Part shown: positions 3,444 to 42,855 of the stretch, one piece after another
Layout: every line of letters starts with the position of its first letter
Numbering within the stretch: the stretch's first letter is position 1
From: Methanothermobacter sp.
GTDB taxonomy: Archaea; Methanobacteriota; Methanobacteria; Methanobacteriales; Methanothermobacteraceae
Length of the DNA stretch: 64,000 nt
NCBI RefSeq assembly: GCF_030055435.1
Contig: NZ_JASFYG010000007.1
Coordinates: 39,343-103,342, forward strand
Direction: 5' to 3'
Position numbers and translations under genes: made by a program
The notes under the pieces: generated by a model
What the model saw: the letters and a program-made list of their open reading frames with translations, nothing else
Database searches by the model: none
What the model was told of the DNA's origin: nothing

Positions 3444-4124
3444 CTATATGTTTGTGGTCTCATTCAGCCTTATGAACCTTGCGACTACGGTCTCCCCTGC
3501 AACAGCCCTTGAACCTGTCTTCACAAGTACCTCACAATTTTGTGGCAGTATAAGATCTACCCTGGAGCCAAACCTTATCATACCTATACGGCTTCCCATT
3601 TCAACATGGTCCCCCTCATTTACGTACTGCACGATCCTCCTTGCAATGAACCCTGCTATCTGCACTACACCGACATTACCATGCTCTGTTTCTATTACAA
3701 TAAGGTTTCTTTCATTTTCTGTCAGTATACGTGAACGTGCAATCCTGAATTTACCGTCAAAGTGCTCTGTGTATATCACCCTTCCTGAGACAGGGGCTCT
3801 GTTGACGTGAACATCAAATGGAGACATGAAGGTGCTTATGAGAATACCTTCACCACTATCAGGAAATATCCTGTCAATAAGAGGATAATCGGATCCCACA
3901 CATTTTATGCGGTCTATTCCACCTGATAAGCGCCTTCCATCTGCGGGGGCAACTATTAGGTTGTCTTCAGTGGGGGTATTCCTTTCAGGATCCCTGAAGA
4001 ACTGCATTATGAAGGCTATAAGAGTGAACATGAGTATACTGACCGTATGGTAGCCGAGGAGAAATGGGATGGTGGCCACACTTATGAGGAAACTGACCCT
4101 TTTTGCAACGCCCTTCACAAACAC
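3444..4124 (-). CDS. asd: Archaetidylserine decarboxylase proenzyme (PSD-A type)
   Basis: About 226 residues, the short type-A phosphatidylserine decarboxylase size. Two N-terminal hydrophobic helices anchor it, followed by FFRDPERNTP and VAPADGRRL, the usual family blocks, and DVHVNRAPVSG. The self-cleavage site is in FGSRVDLILP near the C-terminus; cleavage before that Ser would create the pyruvoyl cofactor and split the protein into beta and alpha chains. It converts archaetidylserine to archaetidylethanolamine. An in-frame GTG at 4133 exists, but AGGTG at 4131-4135 is spaced as the ribosome binding site for the GTG at 4124. It is the first gene of the minus-strand envelope operon. Confidence 0.9.
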   Translation of the reverse strand: MFVKGVAKRVSFLISVATIPFLLGYHTVSILMFTLIAFIMQFFRDPERNTPTEDNLIVAPADGRRLSGGIDRIKCVGSDYPLIDRIFPDSGEGILISTFMSPFDVHVNRAPVSGRVIYTEHFDGKFRIARSRILTENERNLIVIETEHGNVGVVQIAGFIARRIVQYVNEGDHVEMGSRIGMIRFGSRVDLILPQNCEVLVKTGSRAVAGETVVARFIRLNETTNI

Positions 4125-4274
4125 ACAATTCACCTATTCTAATGCTGGATCACATGAAGACCCTTTAAGAGTAAACTCCTGGTTTCCACTCATTAGCAAC
4201 TGCAATGAACCTTATTGGGCTGCAGCCTTTGAGGAAATCAGCACACTACTGGATGTTGAATATTTTAGTGAAAC

Positions 4275-4283
4275 ATATATATA
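4275..4283. promoter_or_regulatory. TATA-like element in the asd / mreB-operon divergent region
   Basis: ATATATATA lies in the 255 bp between divergently transcribed operons and is nearly symmetrical, so it could serve either side: about 150 bp before the asd start and about 100 bp before the plus-strand unknown gene. No mapped transcript supports either use. Confidence 0.35.
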
Positions 4284-4346
4284 GTCATGTGCTGAAGATT
4301 AAATGTAATCTGTGGTTGATATGTATGTGTTTTCCTCTGGAGCAGG

Positions 4347-4366
4347 GGAACTTTCTTTTAAGTTCC
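4347..4366 (+). promoter_or_regulatory. 7-bp perfect inverted repeat upstream of the mreB operon
   Basis: GGAACTT and AAGTTCC are separated by TCTTTT and followed by TTTT. It lies within 15-35 bases of the candidate start codons of the first gene. It could be an operator or a 5'-leader hairpin; the flanking T residues also allow a weak terminator. Confidence 0.4.
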
Positions 4367-4379
4367 TTTTAGAGTAGAT

Positions 4380-5021
4380 GTGATGGTGATGATAGAGAGT
4401 AGGATAAAGGTTCTCAGAAAGGCAGCGCAGGTTTCAACAGCCCAGAGTTCAGACAGGCTGTGGTGTGTGATTGCAGGTAATGAGGAGATGGTCAACTCTG
4501 TGGCATATGAGGCAATCACATCCAGGGATCTTGTAAAGATACTCTTCAGGGAACACGTTACCATCAAGGATTCCTTTTTAAGAAAACGCTTTGATTTAAT
4601 AATGCTTCATGGTGAAAGCAACAAGATAAGAGATCTTTCACTTATATGCAAGGAAAAGGGAGGCGCCTATATAAAGATAGCCCCCTATTACGTTGAGAAC
4701 GAACCCAACCTTGTGCTTCTGGTGGCCCCTGAAAACTACATGAAAAGATTTGCAGGGGAGGCCGAGAAGAATAAAATAGGTTTTTCATTCATCCTTGAGG
4801 ACAGAACAAGTGGATTTATAGAAACAGACGTCTACCTTACAGAGAGGCTCCCGGCATTTATAAGGAATATAATCGATCCCCTCTTCAAGGTTACAGACGT
4901 TGTCCTGGTAACACTGCTGATATCTGTTCATGAAGCAGGGGATGTTGAGAGGATAAATGAGATAGCATCCCGCAACAACATATTTGCAGTTGACTTTAGA
5001 GACATATTTAAGGAGGAGTAG
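4380..5021 (+). CDS. Uncharacterised protein co-transcribed with MreB
   Basis: Up to 213 residues, soluble, charged, with no signal peptide or transmembrane helix and no family I recognise. Beta/alpha alternation (LWCVIAGNE, FDLIMLHGE, GAYIKIAPYY, NLVLLVAPENY) suggests a Rossmann-like or receiver-like fold. Its stop codon lies one base before the MreB start, and the MreB ribosome binding site is inside its last codons, so the two are almost certainly one operon. The start is uncertain because GTG, ATG, GTG and ATG codons follow each other at 4380-4391 without a clear ribosome binding site. A role in shape or wall synthesis is only inferred from the neighbour. Confidence 0.7.
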   Translation: MMVMIESRIKVLRKAAQVSTAQSSDRLWCVIAGNEEMVNSVAYEAITSRDLVKILFREHVTIKDSFLRKRFDLIMLHGESNKIRDLSLICKEKGGAYIKIAPYYVENEPNLVLLVAPENYMKRFAGEAEKNKIGFSFILEDRTSGFIETDVYLTERLPAFIRNIIDPLFKVTDVVLVTLLISVHEAGDVERINEIASRNNIFAVDFRDIFKEE

Positions 5022-5022
5022 C

Positions 5023-6096
5023 ATGTTTTCATTTGGAAAGAAGAAATCTGAAGAGAAACAGGAAAGAAAGAGTGCAATTACCAATACACTCGGAATAGAC
5101 CTGGGCACCCTCAATACCGTGGTTGCCAAACCAGCAGGGGATAAATTTGATATCTACAAGATTCCCTCTGTGGTAGCCGTCAAGAAGGAAGACCCATCAT
5201 ATGTCCTGGCAGTGGGTGAAGAGGCAAAGATGATGCTGGGAAGAACCCCTGAGGACATAATCGCTGTGAGACCACTGAGGAAGGGTGTTATTGAGAGCGT
5301 TGCACAGGCAGAGGCCCTCCTTGTATATGCAATGGAGATGGGGGCGGGAGATTCTGAGTCCATTGATAGGATAGTTATAGGCATACCAGGGGATGCCTCA
5401 GAGGTTGAAAGAAATGCCGTTGAGGAGATAGGAAAAAAGGCCGGCGCGAATTATGTCCTAGTTATAAGTGAGGGTCTTGCAGCCGCCATAGGGGCCGGAT
5501 TGCCCATAGCAGAGGCATCGGGGACAATGGTTGTTGACATAGGGGCTGGTTCAAGTGACATTGTTGTGATATCCCTTGGAGGCATAACTGACATTGAGAC
5601 AATCCGTGTCGGTGGGGATGATATTGACTCCAACCTTGTTGAACTGGTGAAGGAGAAGTACAATGTTGAGATAGGCATCCATGAGGCAGAGAAGGCAAAG
5701 ATAGAGGTTGGAATGGTCAAATGTGATGAGGATCTTGAAAACCTTAAAACAGTAGTTATAGGCAAATGCATGGAGACAAACAAACCTAAAAAAGTTGAAA
5801 TTGACTCTGAAATGGTTGCAGAGGCTGCTGAGCCAGTTGTAAAAGGTATAGTGGATTCCATAGCAGCAGTCCTTGAAAGACTCTCACCTGAACTCATCTC
5901 AGGGGTCTACAACAAGACTATAGTGGTGGGTGGAACCTCACAGCTCAGGGGCCTCAGGGAGAGGATACTGGATGAGGTTGGCATTCCTGCTGAGATATCA
6001 GATGACCCCATGACAGTGGTTGCCAAGGGAGCCGCAATAGTTGCTGCAGAGCCAAGGGCACTTGAACCTGAAGTAAGGCTCAAGGCAATGAAATAA
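5023..6096 (+). CDS. MreB/actin-like ATPase (rod shape-determining homologue)
   Basis: 357 residues, close to bacterial MreB (about 335-350). Actin-fold signatures are in order: phosphate-1 GIDLGTLNT (24-32), phosphate-2 VVDIGAGSSDI (170-180) and adenosine motif VVGGTSQLRG in the last fifth. The N-terminus MFSFGKKK is reminiscent of the membrane-binding hydrophobic tip of some MreBs. MreB filaments guide wall synthesis in bacteria; pseudomurein-walled archaeal rods carry homologues, so a similar role is plausible but not shown. The start is the ATG at 5023 behind AAGGAGGAG. It could also be classed as an MreB/DnaK-like ATPase, but the length lacks the DnaK substrate domain. Confidence 0.9.
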   Translation: MFSFGKKKSEEKQERKSAITNTLGIDLGTLNTVVAKPAGDKFDIYKIPSVVAVKKEDPSYVLAVGEEAKMMLGRTPEDIIAVRPLRKGVIESVAQAEALLVYAMEMGAGDSESIDRIVIGIPGDASEVERNAVEEIGKKAGANYVLVISEGLAAAIGAGLPIAEASGTMVVDIGAGSSDIVVISLGGITDIETIRVGGDDIDSNLVELVKEKYNVEIGIHEAEKAKIEVGMVKCDEDLENLKTVVIGKCMETNKPKKVEIDSEMVAEAAEPVVKGIVDSIAAVLERLSPELISGVYNKTIVVGGTSQLRGLRERILDEVGIPAEISDDPMTVVAKGAAIVAAEPRALEPEVRLKAMK

Positions 6097-39136: not shown

Positions 39137-40237
39137 TCATGTTTGTGGTGGGGAGTGGTTCTGTGACTCTATGTCCTCATGCTCCCTTATTATGTGTGGC
39201 AGCACCTCAAGGAGCACATCCTCGGCATCTTCCCTGTCCCTAACCCTTCTTGCCACTATCTTCCCGTTCCTGAATATGGTCACGTTACTGTCACCCACCT
39301 CAACCATGATGACACCCATCTTCTCTGAGCATCGGGGCTTCCTCTTTTCCATCCTTTCACAAGTTTCTTTTATATCGATGTGGTAGGGCAGCTTAACCTC
39401 GAACATTATCCTTGATTCAGCATCCCTGCAAGGACTGTAAAGTACAATGTCCCTCTCACTCTCCCTGTAGCCTGTGAGGTCCAGGAGCACTCTCTCAAAC
39501 CCGACGGCCATCAACTCATTCTTTATATGCCTCAGATTTGCTGCATTGAGGAGCCTCTCAGGTTCATCAACCTCTATTATTGCAGAGCCCCCCTCATGTC
39601 TGACCCTCACGCTGCCCTCACCGTAGAGTCCCCTGATGAGGGTTTCAGCATATGATACCCTGTTTATCCGTTCAGGCGTTATCTCCTGATCCTTTATCCT
39701 TGTTGCAAGGCATGTGGTATTCTCTGAGTATTCAAGGTTCCTTTTTTTGAGATATTCAAGGACGTCACTCCGTGTAATCCCCGCATCGAGTAGAGGGGTC
39801 TCTATACCCAGCAGATGGTTAACTAGGGTGCCAGGACGGTCCTCAAACATGTCACTTGCGGTTGTTCCATCAAGGACCGCCTCAAAACCCCTTTTTTTGG
39901 CCTCTTCGAGTATTGAACTGTATATGATGTTCTTGCATACAAGGCACCTCTGGGGGGTGTTACTCACAAACTCCTGGTTTTCAAGGAGCGGCCTGTTTAT
40001 TATAAAGTGCTCAACCCCAAGGGATCCGGCAATTGATGATGCATTTTCTATAAAGCCACGGGGCATAACACCTGTGTCAACTGTGAATGCAGCAACTGCA
40101 TCAGCCGAATCCACTGCAATATCAAGCAGTGCTGTACTATCAGCCCCCCCTGAGAATCCAACAGCAACCCTTCGGCCCTTGAGGGCCTCCTTCACCTTTT
40201 CTATCTTTGATTCAAGATCCATGAGTTTCACATCCAT
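39137..40237 (-). CDS. LarE-like PP-loop sulfur transferase with C-terminal extension
   Basis: 366 residues. PP-loop GFSGGADSTAL (27-37) binds ATP. Three cysteines, Cys98 and Cys101 (RCLVCKN) and Cys176 (TTCLATR), are placed as in LarE proteins that hold a [4Fe-4S] cluster and insert sulfur into the nickel-pincer cofactor. The LarE core ends near 258; about 108 more residues follow, with Cys270, Cys293 and Cys303, and are not typical of LarE. GAGGATC precedes the ATG at 40237, which lies inside tfuA (26-bp overlap). No larB or larC is nearby; the operon contains ycaO and tfuA, so sulfur delivery to thioamidation is a reasonable inference. Confidence 0.8.
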   Translation of the reverse strand: MDVKLMDLESKIEKVKEALKGRRVAVGFSGGADSTALLDIAVDSADAVAAFTVDTGVMPRGFIENASSIAGSLGVEHFIINRPLLENQEFVSNTPQRCLVCKNIIYSSILEEAKKRGFEAVLDGTTASDMFEDRPGTLVNHLLGIETPLLDAGITRSDVLEYLKKRNLEYSENTTCLATRIKDQEITPERINRVSYAETLIRGLYGEGSVRVRHEGGSAIIEVDEPERLLNAANLRHIKNELMAVGFERVLLDLTGYRESERDIVLYSPCRDAESRIMFEVKLPYHIDIKETCERMEKRKPRCSEKMGVIMVEVGDSNVTIFRNGKIVARRVRDREDAEDVLLEVLPHIIREHEDIESQNHSPPQT

Positions 40238-40895
40238 GATCCTCATCATCAGAGCTTACCAGTCTTTTAATGTATTTTATAACCTCAAGGGCATCCTCCC
40301 TTTTTATATCCCTCCCCTCAGATTCAAGGAATGACATGAGGGATGCCCTTCTGTTTTCAGGTATCTCTGCATCATGCAGAATTCTCTTGTAGTTCCTGAG
40401 GGGATAAAATAGATCCTTAGCGATTTTCATGAGTTCTTTGAAGTCATCTTCACCGATGATACCCCTTCTAAGGGCCCTTTTAAAGTTAAAATGAATGCTC
40501 ACAAGGGAATCAGAGAAGGCCTCAAGGGTTTCGGGGTTGAAGGCAACTGCAACATCATCATCAGATTCCAGATCACCATTCAGGTAGGCCCTGAATATAC
40601 GGCCGACTCCCACCATTCCCAGATCATGGAGTTCAGAAGCCCTTAGGGCACCCATACTGGCCCCTCCAACAACGGTAACACCCATCCTGAGGGCCTCAAC
40701 GATCTCACGGTGTCCCACCGCCGGGCTCTGATGGAAAACACCGTCAATTATCCCTATTATCTCTGGCTTCTCTGAGAGAGCATCAATGATGTCACCCCGC
40801 CTTACAGGGGGTCTGTAATCTGCCCTTAGGATATCTGATGCCTCACGGTGGGAAAGTGATGGCCCTGTAAATATTATGATCCTTTTTCCATGCAT
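40212..40895 (-). CDS. tfuA: TfuA-related protein (thioamidation partner of YcaO)
   Basis: 227 residues. IIIFTGPSLSHREASDIL and the core VVGGASMGALRASELHDLG are the TfuA signatures, with a helical C-terminal half. In Methanosarcina, tfuA and ycaO are required for the thioglycine of the McrA active-site region; TfuA is thought to help deliver sulfide. The ATG at 40895 has only a weak ribosome binding site, 48 bp after ycaO. The downstream LarE-like gene overlaps its end. Confidence 0.93.
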   Translation of the reverse strand: MHGKRIIIFTGPSLSHREASDILRADYRPPVRRGDIIDALSEKPEIIGIIDGVFHQSPAVGHREIVEALRMGVTVVGGASMGALRASELHDLGMVGVGRIFRAYLNGDLESDDDVAVAFNPETLEAFSDSLVSIHFNFKRALRRGIIGEDDFKELMKIAKDLFYPLRNYKRILHDAEIPENRRASLMSFLESEGRDIKREDALEVIKYIKRLVSSDDEDHGCETHGS

Positions 40896-40943
40896 ATGAA
40901 TTATCTAGTGCATTGGGTCACTTAATCATTTCATCTGTGTGAC

Positions 40944-42140
40944 CTATGATATTTCACCGGGGGACCTTATGCGTCCCCCCACCCTTTCAGGGTCAACAGA
41001 GAAAACTTCGAGTCCCGGTACAATGACCCTTACAACGGGAACACCAACATCACGGGTTAGATCCACATAGAGTGTCTGCTTCAGGCCCGCCCTCTTCAGT
41101 TTATCCAGGGTAATCTCAAGGTCCCTCTGGAATGACCTTGTTGAGAGGTCCTCCATATCCCCAAGTGCAATGGTATCATCGGGCTCAGAGAACCAGTGTC
41201 TATTTAGCCTCTTCATCCTCTCATAGCCAGCCCTCCTCATGAACTCCGCCCTTACGGTGTCCTCCCTTGTGCCATGTATCTGGGTGGCCCGGCTCTGGGC
41301 AACCTCTGTGAGGGCCCTTATAACTGCAATTTCAGGGTCTAGGTGGGTCCCCACGCCCATGGTGAGGAGTGCAGGGTCCCTGAGCACAACATCATCTGCA
41401 ACCGCAGCAACCGTTGCAACGCCAGTGTCAGCGGTGAGATCCACAAGCGTTATCTCAACCCCTGCCCGCTGGAACCTTTCAAGGAGACACATTATTATCC
41501 TGTTATCTGTCCCTGAGCAGTCGATCTCTATCTTAGGACCCCTCCTTGCCTCAAAGAGGCTCCAGGCGTCCCTCTCTATCACCTCCATGAGGCCGTGGAA
41601 TATGGCCTCCTCCAGGACGTTCCCGGATGCAAGGCCATTGGTGTTGGATCTGAAAAGACTCACACAGCCCTCAGGGGGATTGTAAGGGTGAAAAACTGCA
41701 TTTGCAGGTACGTGAATCCTGTCCTGGCTTTTTATATCCTCTGCAATTATCCACTCAACTTCAGAGTCTGTATCAGCGTTTTGAGGTAGAATAAGTGCCT
41801 CAGGGTCCAGGCATTTATCCATCTCCGATGGATGGGCCCTCAGTGTTTCGTCCAGGGGACTCCTCTCGGCGGAGTACCTTTCAAAGGCCTCCATCATTGC
41901 AGAGACACGTGCCTGTTTTCTGGTTGCACCCTTACCTGCGTATATGCTAACGGCACCCTCCTCCGCTGTCGGCCTTATGGCTGAGAATACGGGTATGCCT
42001 ATACGGTCAAGGTGCGTTATCTCGGTTATCCGTGTGACACCTATGTCCCTGAGTTTTTCCCGGAATGCCCGGAGTGTCTCTGAGGGTTTCATGGCCCGGT
42101 GGGTGCATCCAACATACTTAACAGGAATATCCTGGAACAT
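40944..42140 (-). CDS. ycaO: YcaO-domain protein (McrA thioglycine formation)
   Basis: 398 residues. The YcaO ATP-binding elements appear as [38 protein letters not shown] and [20 protein letters not shown]. YcaO activates a peptide backbone amide with ATP; with TfuA it installs the thioamide on McrA. The GTG at 42149 is in frame, but GTGATC is the ribosome binding site for the ATG at 42140. It abuts the M50 protease stop, so that gene, ycaO, tfuA and the LarE-like gene form one operon. Confidence 0.94.
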
Positions 42141-42149
42141 CTCGATCAC

Positions 42150-42725
42150 TTAGAACATGCTGTTGAATGTGAGTGCAAATGCAGATGCGGCTGCAATGAG
42201 CCATATGAGGGGGTTCCATCTGAAAACCTTGGCACCATCAAGTACGGCGATGGGTATAAGGTTAAAGAGGGCAAGGAAACTGTTAACGGCGTATCCAAGT
42301 ACAGCAACATCGCGAAGTGGAGATGGAAGCACAGATGATGCCATGAGAAATAGTAGAGCCAGCATTATGTTGGTGAGGGGTCCCGCAATGGATATCTTCC
42401 CGTTAACGTTCCTGTCAATGTAGTTTCCATGAATGTAAACGGCCCCTGGGGCTGCGAATACGAATCCAAAGTAGGATGTTACAATGGCCAGTATGAGGCC
42501 CTCGATCCAGAGCCTGTACTCGGCCCAGAATCCATACCTTATTGCCATTAACTTATGGGCGATCTCATGGAGGACAAATCCGAGCCCCACGGTAACAAGG
42601 GTTGCCGGAAGCAGAATCAGCGCTACCTGTAGGTTTCTGCCTGAGAACACATAGGCAAATACGCCTGCGATCACAACCATTGAGGTCAGGATATCCCTTA
42701 CCTCTCCTTTACTAAATCTAACCAT
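42150..42725 (-). CDS. Site-2 protease (M50) family membrane metalloprotease
   Basis: 191 residues with about five to six helices. [13 protein letters not shown] carries the zinc-binding HExxH, and [11 protein letters not shown] has the conserved LDG third ligand; both lie in membrane segments. It is the minimal type without PDZ or CBS domains, expected to cut substrates within the membrane. TATA-like ATTATAAG (42749-42756) is centred 28 bp before the ATG at 42725, so the transcript may be leaderless; the GTG at 42746 is too near TATA. It heads the ycaO operon. Confidence 0.88.
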
Positions 42726-42855
42726 GTTTATATTAAAAGGGAACACAGCTTATAATGCTTTCCATTGCTGGATTGATACTGCCTTTCAATTAAATGGAAG
42801 ATTTAAGAACAATCCTCGATATTCTAGAATGGAAAAATTTAAGTGCTTTAAAGGA

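Follow-up and report, generated by a model that had tools for sequence, protein, structure and literature searches.

The thioamidation locus

Almost all biological methane is made by methyl-coenzyme M reductase, which carries a thioamide as a sulfur mark. We analyzed a window of 64,000 nucleotides (the whole stretch of DNA considered here, from contig NZ_JASFYG010000007.1 of Methanothermobacter sp.) in which the genes ycaO and tfuA are followed on the minus strand by a gene of the LarE type with a C-terminal extension (table 1). In profile searches both YcaO and TfuA score above the NCBIfam equivalog cut-offs for thioamidation of the McrA glycine, and the coordinates of the open reading frames (ORFs) agree with these family scores in confirming the consecutive order given in a preliminary description of this DNA. 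The gap from ycaO to tfuA is 48 bp. The overlap of tfuA with the larE-like gene, previously given as 26 bp, has that value for the second of three in-frame ATGs, the start chosen in that description, and becomes 38 or 11 bp with the other two; the third ATG is the start in 27 of 39 aligned homologues. Similarly, the start formerly assigned to ycaO, position 42140, is an in-frame ATG at codon 4, while the ORF itself opens with GTG at 42149.

Table 1. Features of the locus and of related loci (positions within the 64,000-nt window, unless a locus number is given)
Feature	Position	Strand	Scores and remarks
M50-type membrane protease gene	42150..42746	-	PF02163 38.1 bits (cut-off 27.2); directly upstream of ycaO
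ycaO, McrA-glycine thioamidation YcaO	40944..42149	-	TIGR03266 579 bits (cut-off 365); PF02624 324.5 bits
tfuA, TfuA-related McrA-glycine thioamidation protein	40212..40895	-	NF033432 297 bits (cut-off 235.2)
larE-like gene with C-terminal extension	39137..40249	-	TIGR00268 187 bits (cut-off 150)
LarE-type PP-loop domain, residues about 10-262	39464..40222	-
SGGADST PP-loop motif, residues 33-39	40133..40153	-	S33, G35, D37 and S38 in 110/110 rows
Cys102, first CxxC-C cluster-type cysteine	39944..39946	-	110/110 rows
Cys105, second CxxC-C cluster-type cysteine	39935..39937	-	110/110 rows
Cys180, third CxxC-C cluster-type cysteine	39710..39712	-	110/110 rows
C-terminal extension, residues 263-370 (108 residues), predicted single TBP-like repeat	39140..39463	-
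Conserved c7-cluster neighbour, 141 aa	38604-39029		adjoins larE in 15/49 named class loci
larB/HypF-type and larC/QueC-type pairs	L226 4551-5306 + 5412-7736; L227 5715-6926 + 7037-7708; L228; L229

A LarE variant with a predicted TBP-like repeat

Judged from its sequence, the third gene of the operon encodes a LarE variant fused to a predicted repeat of the kind found in the TATA-binding protein (TBP). Residues are numbered here from the first ATG, by which the three LarE cysteines first described as 98, 101 and 176 become Cys102, Cys105 and Cys180; they are indeed invariant in an alignment of 110 rows of extended LarE, 109 of them distinct since the window protein was entered twice. Both the SGGxDS and the CxxC-C signatures of [4Fe-4S]-type LarE are present, and a fold search, in which the PP-loop fold spans residues 8-262, gave [4Fe-4S] LarE 8cnz as the nearest structure.

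The extension has the 108 residues and the three cysteines (274, 297 and 307) attributed to it earlier, but the cysteines are not conserved, since of the 110 rows just 33, 32 and 30 have Cys at the respective positions; a second cluster site in the extension, which we also considered, is rejected on this ground. In the window protein the extension scores 19.0 bits with PF00352 (TBP), below the Pfam cut-off of 22.9. The structural models predict the fold of a TBP repeat, with one repeat per chain and not the tandem two-repeat saddle of TBP, a comparison that covers Foldseek matches and second looks at those, so that folds outside these lists may still match.

Linkage of larE with tfuA and ycaO

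The distribution of the operon was surveyed in 151 genomes of the class Methanobacteria (a phylum-wide search gave the same 151, and other methanogen classes are outside the linkage counts). LarE is found above the cut-off in 138 of these genomes, whereas TfuA and YcaO, both searched at E <= 0.001, are matched in 142 and 145, respectively. The larE gene follows tfuA on the same strand, within 2.5 kb, in 89 of the 151 genomes and never precedes it, an arrangement which, given this count, is not due to chance; the distance between the matched stretches is within 300 bp in 82 of the 89 and 944 bp at most. Two copies of larE above the cut-off are present in 12 genomes and none in 13, while larE occurs without tfuA in five genomes and four have neither. 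The ycaO-tfuA-larE operon is real and old in the class, and the comparison of these genomes supports an association of larE with the genes for thioamidation that is old and conserved.

The most telling case is genome G001 (1,243,342 bp in one contig, 99% complete), in which an M50-type gene is grouped with ycaO and with larE, extension included; the ORFs of the latter two share up to 41 bp. No gene of the convergent c7/CBS block, which accompanies most tfuA-linked larE genes in the named loci of the class, was matched there across 15 kb. Moreover, neither tfuA nor, at E <= 1e-20, an E1 was matched in G001.

The operon is variable elsewhere in the class. In 10 of the 20 genomes of genus g14, larE stands with tfuA and ycaO is located elsewhere each time; three loci of the same genus (L150, L151 and L153, from genomes G131, G120 and G127) have tfuA beside a gene read as HD-type and no larE above the cut-off. 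In G148, a genome of the same genus as the window that is 99% complete, tfuA is split into two ORFs (L158, 5926-6354 and 6381-6752) and the adjacent ycaO and larE frames are open. Outside the class, a deltaproteobacterial contig (L068) has a LarE gene (3837-4685, 292 bits) followed directly by a YcaO gene (4667-5896, PF02624 229.5 bits), the only such pair seen among 31 non-class loci by tblastn with the window YcaO; this separate pair also speaks for a link of LarE with YcaO.

Relocation of larE beside E1 genes

Among the 61 larE regions lying outside 2.5 kb of tfuA, 40 have a gene for a ThiF/MoeB-type E1 enzyme downstream on the same strand, with an estimated gap of -1 to 19 bp in 38 of them and of 718 and 1026 bp in the other two. 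Four of the remaining 21 regions end less than 700 bp past the larE match, one is that of G001 with its ycaO, and another (G132) has tfuA and ycaO just past the 2.5-kb limit; the rest have neither gene in the stretch fetched. The E1 beside larE shares 49% identity with the E1 encoded in the genome of the window. TfuA reportedly uses a carrier that is activated by enzymes of this type, and this supports a sulfur link also for the relocated larE.

In a tree of 125 rows, which was obtained by a quick method without bootstrap and carries a long-branch warning at the junction of the outgroup with the row of G001, extended LarE splits from outgroup LarE with an SH-aLRT of 100. The E1-linked rows fall within a single clade, which they share with tfuA-linked rows, and the label needs four changes.

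Proposed sulfur relay and its alternatives

The preliminary description regarded the in vivo sulfur source for thioamidation as not settled. This is incomplete, since an archaeal TfuA is reported to hydrolyse thiocarboxylated ThiS (ThiS-COSH) as a sulfur source for YcaO (PMC8153245). Thioamide-forming YcaO systems away from high-sulfide places tend toward a ThiS-like carrier and TfuA (PMC13063428), and the genes thiF, sufS, moaD, moaE and moeB have been reported near the ycaO-tfuA loci of other methanogens (Nayak 2017; PMC5589413). Many methanogens are without rhodanese-related sulfur donors (PMC2948915), and LarE adenylylates a carboxyl group that is then converted to a thiocarboxylate (PMC9283937). 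The available literature texts yielded no statement on what charges the carrier in methanogens, and our search returned no paper linking LarE with TfuA/YcaO in methanogens or with 'methanogenesis marker protein'.

The genome of the window has one strong E1 match (L221, 5665-6417; Pfam ThiF 197.6 bits, cut-off 28.1) and a second, weak one below the Pfam cut-off. Its E1 has no CxxC and therefore may need an outside sulfur donor. A single ThiS-like protein of 68 residues, ending in GG, is encoded by a gene that overlaps a PP-loop gene, which we take to be TtuA/NcsA-like.

By its chemistry and its place, LarE would be a natural candidate for such a donor. Its likeliest role, which we put forward tentatively on the basis of sequence comparisons, is to supply activated sulfur for the thioamidation of McrA by YcaO and TfuA, although sequence alone does not set this apart from a role in nickel-pincer synthesis. 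A [4Fe-4S] cluster, held by the three invariant cysteines, would bind a spare sulfide. The PP-loop, with ATP, would activate a carboxylate, for which the Gly-Gly terminus of the sole ThiS-like carrier is the most probable candidate, and the LarE-like protein would do so either alone or with the ThiF/MoeB-type E1. Transfer of sulfur to the activated carboxylate would give a thiocarboxylate that TfuA would hydrolyse, passing the sulfide to YcaO, which in turn would O-phosphorylate the McrA glycine and convert it to the thioamide. In the G001 lineage, which gave no match to tfuA or E1, LarE would give sulfide straight to YcaO. For the TBP-like repeat we envisage a role in docking or dimerisation. 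Of the original proposal, namely that the LarE-like protein may be a dedicated sulfur donor to TfuA/YcaO, we retain the donor, in agreement with the conserved link, the G001 case and the E1 neighbour, and drop the word dedicated.

Several observations weigh against this role, some of them being shared with the nickel-pincer explanation discussed further on. Homologues away from ycaO and tfuA, which had been named beforehand as speaking against the proposal, do exist in part: larE and tfuA are both present but apart in 44 of the 151 genomes, and nine have tfuA without larE above the cut-off, including G131, which is 99% complete, and G013, in which the LarE match is weaker. In a synteny control with 49 named loci of the class, larE is near tfuA in 24, and 20 of these also keep the convergent c7/CBS block; since this surrounding block is conserved too, the count of 89 linked genomes is not strong evidence. 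None of the 49 loci combines larE and the c7/CBS block without tfuA, and of the four with tfuA-linked larE but without the block, two (L010 and L011) stop some 800 bp or less from larE and two are rearranged (L023 and L052). Likewise, the 40 E1-linked regions are not strong evidence, because the tree would reduce them to about one relocation with later shuffling rather than 40 events. Both E1 proteins have their best scores with ThiF/MoeB-type models but stay under every NCBIfam cut-off listed for these, and hence the E1 substrate is not established. Finally, the larE of G001, without tfuA or E1, is at odds with a ThiS relay being obligatory; two methanogens with YcaO and without TfuA nevertheless have thioglycine, according to PMC5589413. 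On balance, we consider the linkage of larE with tfuA as sequence-based evidence of medium weight for a sulfur role.

The protein could instead be the usual LarE for making the nickel-pincer nucleotide, its partners LarB and LarC being encoded at other loci. Its position in the operon would then reflect a gene order retained from ancestors or a common regulation by sulfide supply. We consider this main alternative possible but less likely. The preliminary description had dismissed this role on the ground that no larB or larC is nearby; none is, but both genes are in the same genome, and so the reasoning is rejected. Of the 151 genomes, 143 have LarB and 150 have LarC above the cut-off; the genome of the window has both, and the operon LarE is the only LarE above the cut-off there. 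Furthermore, the synteny of the region is broadly conserved, and the positions equivalent in the alignment to the P2CMN phosphate ligands of Lactobacillus plantarum LarE (Ser180, Arg212 and Arg214) are mostly kept: Thr183 and Arg217 are found in all 110 rows, and position 215 is Arg in 44, including the window protein, and Lys in 66. The nickel-pincer role is weakened by the results for LarA, so far the sole enzyme known to use the cofactor: 143 genomes, including that of the window, gave no match at E <= 0.001; the eight genomes with matches, all of g14, show stretches of about 50 residues each, four of them above the cut-off, while the controls Thermotoga maritima and M. acetivorans were positive. 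LarE in general often neighbours LarC (about 54%) and LarB (47%) according to PMC13329287, whereas the larE of this genome is near neither. Nor does the nickel-pincer pathway, as described, account for the E1 neighbour or the TBP-like repeat. The pincer nucleotide may be made for some user other than LarA. In the genome of the window, which has no LarA match, larB adjoins a gene of the HypF type and larC one of the QueC type; the same neighbours are seen in G001, as read from translations only. Three archaeal QueC-family clusters, common in methanogens, were left unanalysed in PMC13329287, and the LarE-like protein may fall in one of these.

Two pathways might also be served at once, a single LarE making thiocarboxylates on the ThiS-like carrier as well as on the product of LarB. 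Such an arrangement would agree with the near-universal presence of both partner sets in a class where most genomes have a single larE above the cut-off, yet we consider it unlikely, since larB and larC persist in genomes without larE above the cut-off (for example G131 and G120) and, to our knowledge, no known LarE acts on a protein. Nucleic-acid thiolation, with the TBP-like repeat as nucleic-acid binder in the manner of the RNA-binding domains of other PP-loop thiolases, appears very improbable.

Returning to sulfur donation by LarE, a broader and more speculative version would be that Methanobacteria have a different sulfur relay to McrA, in which LarE with a TBP module makes a thiocarboxylate that is opened by TfuA and can feed YcaO even without TfuA or E1, the substrate being the ThiS-like carrier or perhaps even the pyridinium nucleotide made by LarB. 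If true, this relay would involve the first protein-modifying LarE, the making of protein thiocarboxylates would bring a new class of substrates to the family, and the sets of larB, larC and larE without LarA would be accounted for, tying nickel-pincer enzymes, here without their user, to methane metabolism. Genetic tools for Methanothermobacter have been described (PMC8609365; PMC10370314).

Neighbouring genes

The M50-type gene, which is upstream of ycaO also in G001, is a possible further member of the operon; it adjoins ycaO in all 14 named class loci having both, and the pair recurs across the class. The 141-residue protein of the c7 cluster has no Pfam or NCBIfam match at E <= 0.1. No tRNA genes were found in the window, and scans of it for sigma-70 promoters and terminators are uninformative for archaeal DNA.

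Comparison with known systems

The locus resembles that described for McrA thioamidation (Nayak 2017; PMC5589413) in having ycaO and tfuA, and differs from it in the LarE-type gene directly downstream, LarE being unmentioned in the available text of that study. The tRNA thiolases TtuA and NcsA are likewise PP-loop enzymes that work with a thiocarboxylated ubiquitin-like carrier. With respect to TBP (PF00352), the extension has one repeat instead of two, is fused to a PP-loop enzyme and stays below the Pfam cut-off. The closest relatives are the [4Fe-4S] LarE proteins (mmLarE, PDB 8cnz, and that of T. maritima), with which the window protein shares the PP-loop fold, the SGGxDS and CxxC-C signatures and a TIGR00268 score above the cut-off. 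It departs from them in the added TBP-like repeat, in a gene that here forms part of the ycaO-tfuA operon, away from larB and larC, and that adjoins E1 in other genomes, and in belonging to a class in which 143 of 151 genomes are without a LarA match.
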